Shown here: in pieces, positions 17,988-19,542 of the stretch
Position numbering within the stretch: the stretch's first letter is position 1
Layout of the letters: every line of letters starts with the position of its first letter
From: a virus
Length of the DNA stretch: 20,004 nt
IMG/VR virus record: IMGVR_UViG_3300030099_004271
Coordinates: 1 to 20,004 of that record
Strand: one strand, 5' to 3'
The notes under the pieces: generated by a model
Seen by the model: only the letters and a program-made list of their open reading frames with translations
The model's database searches: none
Told to the model about the DNA's origin: nothing
Position numbers and translations under genes: made by a program

Positions 17988-18090
17988 TTTTGTAGCTAAA
18001 CCAAAAGTAAAGCGTAAAGGAGTTCACTCTAAAAACTCTTCTAAAGGGCAAAAGGGTTATAAAAAGAAGTATCGAGGTCAGGGCAAATGA
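17965..18090 (+). CDS. Very basic 41-aa protein
   Basis: ATG 17965 to TGA 18088-18090 gives 41 residues: 'MARKAISSFVAKPKVKRKGV', then a lysine-, serine- and glycine-rich C-terminus 'KGYKKKYRGQGK'. Net charge is strongly positive with no acidic residues. The stop shares four bases with the next start (ATGA), and it overlaps the preceding gene by 23 bases, so it is embedded in the operon. I believe similar basic mini-proteins accompany late genes in other Bacteroidetes phages. A nucleic-acid-binding or membrane-active role is a guess. Confidence 0.6.
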   Translation: MARKAISSFVAKPKVKRKGVHSKNSSKGQKGYKKKYRGQGK

Positions 18091-18314
18091 TACAAAAAGA
18101 TTTAACTTTATCAGTAGGAAATATAATTTGGATAATAGGTATTATATTTACTATGGGTATAGCTTATAGTCAAATTGCACAACTTGATGAAGATATATTA
18201 GTCCTTGAAAAAAGACTAGAAAAAAAGATAAAAATACTAAACGAAAACGAAGACCGTATAGTAGAATTAGAAAAAGAATTAGCAACTATAAAAAAATGCA
18301 ACAATGATAGATAA
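18087..18314 (+). CDS. Small membrane protein with coiled coil, i-spanin-like candidate
   Basis: The 75-residue protein has one N-terminal membrane segment (residues ~9-29, 'VGNIIWIIGIIFTMGIAYSQ') and a charged coiled coil (residues ~31-69, leucine/isoleucine heptads in 'DILVLEKRLEKKIKILNENE'). This is the plan of an inner-membrane spanin or of a small holin-associated protein. It overlaps its neighbours by four and eleven bases. No outer-membrane lipoprotein partner was found nearby, so the spanin call is tentative. Confidence 0.55.
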   Translation: MIQKDLTLSVGNIIWIIGIIFTMGIAYSQIAQLDEDILVLEKRLEKKIKILNENEDRIVELEKELATIKKCNNDR

Positions 18315-18399
18315 GATAAAAGCAGCAGCGTGTGTATTATTACACCATGTAACATTTAAGAAGGTGTGTTTTGGTAAATGTAAATACTGTAAACTGTAA
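18304..18399 (+). CDS. Cysteine-rich 31-aa mini-protein
   Basis: ATG 18304 to TAA 18397-18399 gives 31 residues with cysteines at 10, 22, 26 and 29 ('VCFGKCKYCKL', a CxxxCxxC arrangement) plus histidines at 14 and 15. It overlaps the preceding coding end by 11 bases and its stop shares one base with the next ATG (TAATG), the same coupling used by full-size genes here. That junction is the main reason to believe it is real. The cysteine cluster could bind zinc or form disulfides; function unknown. Confidence 0.5.
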   Translation: MIDKIKAAACVLLHHVTFKKVCFGKCKYCKL

Positions 18400-18608
18400 T
18401 GGAAGAAGTATTAAAATTAGTAGAAACCTATGGTATTACATTAGTTTTATTAATAGGTAGTTGTTACGCTCTTTACAAATTTTTCATTTTCAGCATTTAC
18501 GAGGTAAAATCGCAATTTTCAAAATATCACGAGAACAACGCTAAAGATATGCAGCATATCAAAAGCAAGATAGATATTATCTTAGAGTTTATTAAGAAGA
18601 ATAGCTAA
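18399..18608 (+). CDS. Small holin-like protein (BhlA/UviB-like layout)
   Basis: The 69-residue protein has a membrane segment at residues ~12-33 ('ITLVLLIGSCYALYKFFIF') and a charged, helical C-terminus ('HENNAKDMQHIKSKIDIILE'). Length and plan match BhlA/UviB-type small holins, in which the N-terminal helix inserts into the membrane. It starts in a TAATG junction and ends one base before the putative endolysin gene. A second, different holin candidate lies at 19153, so which one sets lysis timing is not known. Confidence 0.5.
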   Translation: MEEVLKLVETYGITLVLLIGSCYALYKFFIFSIYEVKSQFSKYHENNAKDMQHIKSKIDIILEFIKKNS

Positions 18609-18609
18609 T

Positions 18610-19089
18610 ATGGATTTATTGGTATTAAGATTTAGCAGTCAAAAAGATTCAACAAACGGTCTGCTATTTCAAAAAACTGAAAGCTTCGGTCTTCAATTTC
18701 TATGCTACACATTAGAAGATGAGTTTAGGGCGTTGAAGGTTAGAGGCGAAACTAGAATACCTGCGGGTATATACGATATTAAATTTAGAAAAGAAGGTGG
18801 ATTTCATAATAAATACAGCAAGCGTTTTGCCGATATTCATAAGGGAATGTTGCAAGTTATGGATGTGCCTAATTTTGATTATATTTTGTTGCATTGTGGT
18901 AACACTGACGAGCATAGCTCAGGGTGTTTACTCTTGGGCGACTCGCAAGAAAATAATGTTATCATCAAAGATGGATTTATAGGTAAGTCAACAAATGCTT
19001 ACAAAAGAGTTTATCCGCTTATTGCAAAAGAACTAGAATTAGGTAATAAGGTAACTATTGAATATAAAGACTTTGATAAACAATTTTAA
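18610..19089 (+). CDS. DUF5675-type protein, putative lysis enzyme
   Basis: The 159-residue protein appears to be a member of DUF5675, small proteins frequent in phages and Bacteroidetes. Features seen: 'FLCYTLEDEFRALKVRGETR' followed by 'IPAGIYDIKFR', a charged central segment, and 'YILLHCGNTDEHSSGCLLLG' with H95, C96, G97 and a terminal S104-G105-C106. The H-x-G...S-x-G-C pattern recalls the active site of YkuD-type L,D-transpeptidases (HxG and SxGC with a nucleophilic cysteine), though the fold is not established. It sits between two holin candidates, where phages normally place the endolysin, and no classical lysozyme, amidase or peptidase occurs in the window. The enzyme role is inference; a non-enzymatic cell-wall-binding role is the alternative. 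Confidence 0.65.
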   Translation: MDLLVLRFSSQKDSTNGLLFQKTESFGLQFLCYTLEDEFRALKVRGETRIPAGIYDIKFRKEGGFHNKYSKRFADIHKGMLQVMDVPNFDYILLHCGNTDEHSSGCLLLGDSQENNVIIKDGFIGKSTNAYKRVYPLIAKELELGNKVTIEYKDFDKQF

Positions 19090-19152: not shown

Positions 19153-19542
19153 ATGAGTATTTTAGGTAAAATATTTAGTAGTGGTGCTAAAGATTTAGTT
19201 GAAAGCGTTGGAACTGCTATTGATAAAATTCACACCTCAGCAGAGGAAAAGGAATTGATAAAAAGCGAAATAGAAAAGAAGATACTAGATTACGATTACA
19301 ATATTCAAAAGGAAGTTACTAAGCGTTGGGAAGCTGATATGCAGGGTAATTGGTTGACAAAATCAATTAGACCTCTTACACTAGCGTTCCTAATGGTTGT
19401 TCTTACTGTATTTACATTAGTTGATTTTGGATATGTAAACATCAGTATATCAGACTCTTGGATTGACCTTTGGCAAATTTTAGCCATTACCTGCTTTGGT
19501 GCATACTTCGGAGGAAGGTCTGTTGAAAAAATTAAAAGATAA
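19153..19542 (+). CDS. Holin of the 3TM/GTA-holin-like type
   Basis: The 129-residue protein has an N-terminal amphipathic region, a charged helix 'EEKELIKSEIEKKI', the motif 'KRWEADMQGNWLTKSIRPLT' and two membrane segments at residues ~74-95 and ~104-121, then 'GGRSVEKIKR'. The 'RWEADM...WL.K.IRPLTL' motif with two close membrane helices is the signature of GTA-type 3TM holins. It lies 63 bases after the putative endolysin; the gap contains a hairpin and repeated TAAAG/AAAGATAA purine-rich stretches, and an AAGGAT just before the ATG. It is the last gene before the 153-base intergenic region. Holin function is likely from family and location. Confidence 0.75.
   Translation: MSILGKIFSSGAKDLVESVGTAIDKIHTSAEEKELIKSEIEKKILDYDYNIQKEVTKRWEADMQGNWLTKSIRPLTLAFLMVVLTVFTLVDFGYVNISISDSWIDLWQILAITCFGAYFGGRSVEKIKR

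Follow-up and report, generated by a model that had tools for sequence, protein, structure and literature searches.

The late genes of this phage raise the question of which protein opens the host cell wall at lysis. In the original prediction no lysozyme, amidase or peptidase was visible among the late genes, which holds true of the window (the whole stretch of DNA analysed, a linear virus record of 20 kb that is incomplete), and a protein of DUF5675 type was put forward as the candidate endolysin. The results described below make it fairly likely that this 159-aa protein is a phage endolysin, cysteine-based and built on an altered L,D-transpeptidase domain. The region contains the following features:

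18087-18314, plus strand: possible Rz-like spanin of 75 aa, with an N-terminal membrane segment and a charged coiled coil (weak, E 0.02)
18304-18399, plus strand: Cys-rich mini-ORF of 31 aa, overlapping the genes on both sides and kept in three relatives
18399-18608, plus strand: small membrane protein of 69 aa with one N-terminal membrane segment, the second holin candidate (conserved; no credible family match)
18610-19089, plus strand: DUF5675 protein of 159 aa, candidate endolysin (ATG start, profile match, motif, substitution pattern)
18892-18927, plus strand: candidate active-site segment from H95 to C106, HCGNTDEHSSGC, in whose sequence H, G, N, G and C are invariant
19153-19542, plus strand: holin-family protein of 129 aa (phrog_3427, E 9e-24; weak match to GTA_holin_3TM)

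The existence of a DUF5675-type open reading frame at 18610-19089 could be confirmed. It begins with ATG, runs on the plus strand for 159 codons, and its product was assigned to PF18925 (DUF5675) with 87.9 bits against a cut-off of 26.7 (E 5.5e-25). The protein also belongs to PHROG 1501, which is labelled as of unknown function. When the gene was compared with four relatives, third codon positions took most of the differences, and the values obtained against relatives were 0.12-0.14 for dN and 1.2-2.2 for dS where the latter was computable. Since third-position differences dominate and dN is low relative to dS, this is a real gene under purifying selection and its product is a constrained protein.

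The segment LLHCGNTDEHSSGC, which had drawn attention by its likeness to the HxG...SxGC active site of YkuD enzymes, is present in the protein. P-x-G-x-Y occupies residues 51-55 and is followed by H95-x-G97-N98 and then by [ST]-x-G105-C106. In 44 diverse sequences, with identity down to 34%, H95, G97, N98, G105 and C106 were invariant, so that the two residues proposed as catalytic, H95 and C106, withstood the comparison. The motif HxGN-x5-[ST]xGC was retained with fixed spacing in 208 of the 209 unique DUF5675 proteins, which come from two branches; in the sole exception, a protein at a contig end, V replaces G. The YkuD motif HXX14-17[S/T]HGC, as given in the Tlde1a paper, does not describe DUF5675: C106 stands only 11 residues past H95, and GC is preceded by A, S, E, D, G or others, with His in 1 of the 59 branch-2 proteins. 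The motif pattern of Tlde1_dom, that is HxG and [ST]xGC after P-x-G-x-Y, is the one seen in DUF5675.

In the Pfam searches the second match of the window protein was Tlde1_dom (PF10908; E 0.0025), the 18.7 bits of which lie under the curated cut-off of 30.1. Tlde1_dom was likewise the second family in 34 of 44 DUF5675 relatives (E <1, best E 3e-5). YkuD (PF03734) gave no match for the window protein in this search and matched 1 of the 44 relatives, at E 0.099. Sets of proteins with Tlde1 and YkuD domains were taken from the genomes of two proteobacterial classes and of the hosts of DUF5675 loci. In many of the Tlde1 members the motif reads IHGG...S-x-GC, and the residue ahead of GC varies as it does in DUF5675. 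In HHalign comparisons DUF5675 matched Tlde1 with 58% probability (E 1e-4) and Tlde1 matched YkuD with 96%; the value for DUF5675 against YkuD was 3.5%, which is not significant, with the columns of His and of GC aligned to each other, and each of 50 control phage gene families stayed below 1% against DUF5675. The PDB sequence search with the window protein alone gave no match, the one with the DUF5675 family profile gave only chance matches (complement factor B and ribosomal protein S20), and the NCBIfam scan likewise gave chance matches only.

Judged from these sequence comparisons, DUF5675 is probably a distant relative of Tlde1, which is an altered L,D-transpeptidase domain. Tlde1a (PF10908) and DUF5675 agree in the succession of P-x-G-x-Y, HxG and [ST]xGC; the position ahead of GC varies among many Tlde1 members, and the profile match is weak but consistent. 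Tlde1a itself is an effector of type VI secretion, carries a capping subdomain and is no phage lysin, and the window protein stays below the Pfam cut-off for its family. With YkuD enzymes (PF03734; Pgp2, Csd6) the family has in common the succession of Cys and His with Gly, and likewise that of the structural elements. However, since the histidine of [S/T]HGC is absent, the spacing between His and Cys is shorter than the YkuD motif demands, and no significant YkuD profile match was obtained, DUF5675 is not a canonical YkuD domain and is nearer to the altered L,D-transpeptidase domain of Tlde1 type than to YkuD itself. Thus, from the predicted likeness to YkuD, an L,D-transpeptidase-like active site and relationship were retained, while the assignment to YkuD proper gave way to one of Tlde1 type.

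The predicted structures were compared with known folds as well. The AlphaFold model of the window protein was confident (pLDDT 91), and in the Foldseek search of the PDB with this model there was no L,D-transpeptidase among the matches listed. For the model of a divergent member encoded in a Methylobacillus genome (pLDDT 94), the best of 350,542 PDB chains was Pgp2 of Campylobacter jejuni (prob 0.85, TM 0.47, E 0.07), a YkuD-family enzyme that acts as an L,D-carboxypeptidase and has a Cys-His-Gly triad. The anticipated similarity to YkuD folds was thus suggested for the divergent member and not seen among the listed matches of the window protein. According to the Tlde1a paper, the nearest structure of Tlde1a is that of Csd6, a related carboxypeptidase. 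The order of elements in DUF5675 (three-strand meander, P-x-G-x-Y strand, HxG strand, [ST]xGC strand, helix, last strand) is that of L,D-transpeptidases. The fold link drawn from these models agrees with the sequence data and is suggestive, although it is not significant alone.

The absence of a significant Foldseek match to a transpeptidase, the missing His before GC and the direct YkuD profile match of 3.5% would also suit a protein unrelated to L,D-transpeptidases, in which the HxG and GC motifs arose by convergence in a hydrolase of another kind. We consider this quite unlikely, because the Tlde1 profile matches, the order of motifs, that of structural elements and the top rank of Pgp2 in the fold search agree independently of each other.

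The second line of evidence concerns the neighbouring genes, for which holin candidates had been predicted on both sides. The product of 19153-19542 does fall in a holin family, whereas 18399-18608, which ends immediately ahead of the DUF5675 start (18610), could be classed only as the gene of a small membrane protein. The peptides of 18304-18399 in three relatives are MIEKLKVLACILLYKISFKKVCFGNCKYCNL-like and possibly represent a mini-protein of the lysis cassette. A survey of gene neighbourhoods bore out the association with holins: a homologue of 19153-19542 was located at most five genes from DUF5675 in 87 of 146 loci, always on the same strand. Of 17 long genomes, 14 had a holin homologue at this distance, where 2.7 were expected (P 2e-9). 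In phages of the divergent branch a holin (phrog_3427, 217) precedes DUF5675, and what follows it is an Rz-like spanin (phrog_2466, 2536) or a holin and then an Rz-like spanin (phrog_1356, 13). In several of these loci DUF5675 lies directly between the holin and the Rz-like spanin genes, and the slot between holin and spanin genes is the usual place of the endolysin. The placement in a lysis cassette is thus upheld by holin neighbours in the window and its relatives and by flanking holin and spanin genes in the divergent phages. Since the holin profile of the window matched 2 of the 54 divergent-branch loci and the holins there belong mostly to other families, the cassette is conserved in kind, without one fixed holin. 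The DUF5675 protein of a Thiohalocapsa phage, named a peptidoglycan hydrolase, is encoded near an Rz-like spanin, and gp30 of crAss001 comes just after a holin-like gene.

Since the record is incomplete, the absence of a lysin within the window means little alone, and longer relatives were examined. Among 44 of these, neither Amidase_2 nor M15_4 was found, and the single lysozyme domain that passed the cut-off sat inside a 752-aa ORF. The ends of one relative, G002, bear a direct repeat of ~109 bases, and another, G001, carries the same gene set in permuted order; on these grounds the G002 genome (~34.5 kb), which is collinear with the window, is apparently complete. No classical lysin was recognised in G002, whose proteins matched no lysin family, and the recurrent small genes of 20 long relatives matched none either. 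A "peptidase" of G002 (phrog_4191) was considered as a rival lysin and rejected; it has 348 aa, is weakly similar to M42/M28 aminopeptidases and lies in another gene block. This relative of M42/M28-like metallopeptidases (L194, 3714-4757, minus strand) is an odd gene product for a 34-kb phage. In the relatives (the window's own genome being incomplete) DUF5675 is the only recognisable wall hydrolase, and it is present in single copy in 19 of 20 long genomes, the 20th record being covered only in part. Many genes of the relatives match no family, so an unrecognised lysin is possible.

If the DUF5675 protein acts as an endolysin, its release would be expected to depend on the holin, since no signal peptide was seen: it would remain cytoplasmic up to the moment at which the inner membrane is opened by the holin encoded next to it. 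The thiol of C106, activated by H95, would then attack the peptidoglycan, the domain being an altered L,D-transpeptidase of the Tlde1/Csd6/Pgp2 kind. Enzymes of the YkuD family are reported to act on the mDAP-D-Ala bond as transpeptidases, carboxypeptidases or endopeptidases (PMC12729407). In the DUF5675 protein hydrolysis rather than crosslinking would be the relevant reaction, and the most likely cut would be at the mDAP(3)-D-Ala(4) bond of the stem peptide, by L,D-endopeptidase and L,D-carboxypeptidase activity; where the stem so cut is the donor in a 4-3 crosslink, the crosslink would open.

The main activity of the known relatives Tlde1, Csd6 and Pgp2 is the trimming or exchange of D-Ala4. 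This by itself would not necessarily burst a cell, and it counts against the endolysin reading. It favours a role of DUF5675 as a peptidoglycan-modifying L,D-enzyme (D-Ala trimming, D-amino acid exchange, 3-3 crosslinking), which would aid lysis or protect the infected cell while the true endolysin is an unrecognised protein, for which the several genes of relatives without a family would leave room. However, in the divergent branch DUF5675 stands where an endolysin gene would, with holin and spanin on either side, no lysin was found in the apparently complete G002, and all but the partly covered one of the 20 long genomes hold one DUF5675 copy. A purely modifying role is therefore unlikely in our judgement.

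The gene is not confined to lysis cassettes. In T4-like Vibrio and Pseudomonas phages (L372, L083) DUF5675 lies between portal and prohead/scaffold genes, and a DUF5675-like fold is a domain of viral proteins of 868-1251 aa (A0A1L7N1E2 of Ralstonia phage RP31, A0A8S5VTR0, A0A7H0XAI4), which are perhaps virion-associated hydrolases. Both observations would fit an action in the virion or in assembly, either local wall hydrolysis at entry or a part in head assembly, with the nearness of holins being coincidental. On the other hand, the association with holin or spanin recurs in unrelated phage lineages, and the DUF5675 of the window phage is a free-standing protein of 159 aa. Moreover, the annotation of the T4-like Vibrio phage D506 contains no endolysin besides the tail lysozyme, and for this reason DUF5675 may serve as the endolysin there too. 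The virion or assembly role thus appears highly unlikely for the window protein.

The endolysin reading has precedents in annotation. The crAss001 protein gp30 is a DUF5675-type homologue (tblastn E 4e-6) which, like the window protein, is encoded beside a holin-like gene; the two are ~27% identical, and the GenBank name of gp30, L,D-carboxypeptidase/transpeptidase, derives from annotation only. Another crAss-like member gave a BFVD fold match with E 1.9e-9. In the literature no activity was found reported for the crAss-like DUF5675 homologue, and DUF5675 itself was found named in two phage papers, without a function. In the available part of the PhaLP account (PMC8310338) YkuD is a catalytic domain of phage lysins and 10 proteins of L,D-transpeptidase type are given, one of them by PF10908; DUF5675 is absent from what that part says of such lysins. 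These 10 make a rare class in comparison with DUF5675, for which at least 600 matches were obtained in viral contigs. Since GenBank names the crAss-like homologues so and PhaLP lists YkuD, the idea of an L,D-carboxypeptidase/transpeptidase is not new. The new elements are the motif kept across the family, the connection via Tlde1, the survey of gene cassettes and the lack of rival lysins, which are combined here into a case that the members of DUF5675 are widespread endolysins with an altered type of L,D-transpeptidase domain.

In its widest form, namely that the family lyses hosts by cleaving mDAP-D-Ala bonds as thiol-based L,D-endopeptidases in marine Bacteroidota-type phages, crAss-like phages, phages of other Gram-negative bacteria and possibly some microviruses, the proposal is a tentative one, and we would put its chances somewhat below even. 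We know of no experimentally shown phage endolysin with thiol-based L,D-endopeptidase activity. If the proposal is true, a function would be given to DUF5675, a family without an assigned role that is found in hundreds of viral contigs, the gap of the missing endolysin would be filled in many Bacteroidota-type phages, including the crAss-like gut phages, and cysteine-based L,D-peptidases would join the known phage lysis enzymes.

Two unusual arrangements of the domain were also observed. In a 315-aa ORF (L339) the DUF5675 domain is followed, in the same reading frame, by a tail that has a lipobox-like sequence and a C-terminal membrane segment; the tail resembles a u-spanin, and the ORF is possibly an endolysin-spanin fusion. 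In a member of the Gokushovirinae (PV067912, L374) an unannotated DUF5675-like stretch lies at 1681-1950 between the genes of the major capsid and pilot proteins. Other Microviridae also match DUF5675, which may be the lysis enzyme of some microviruses.
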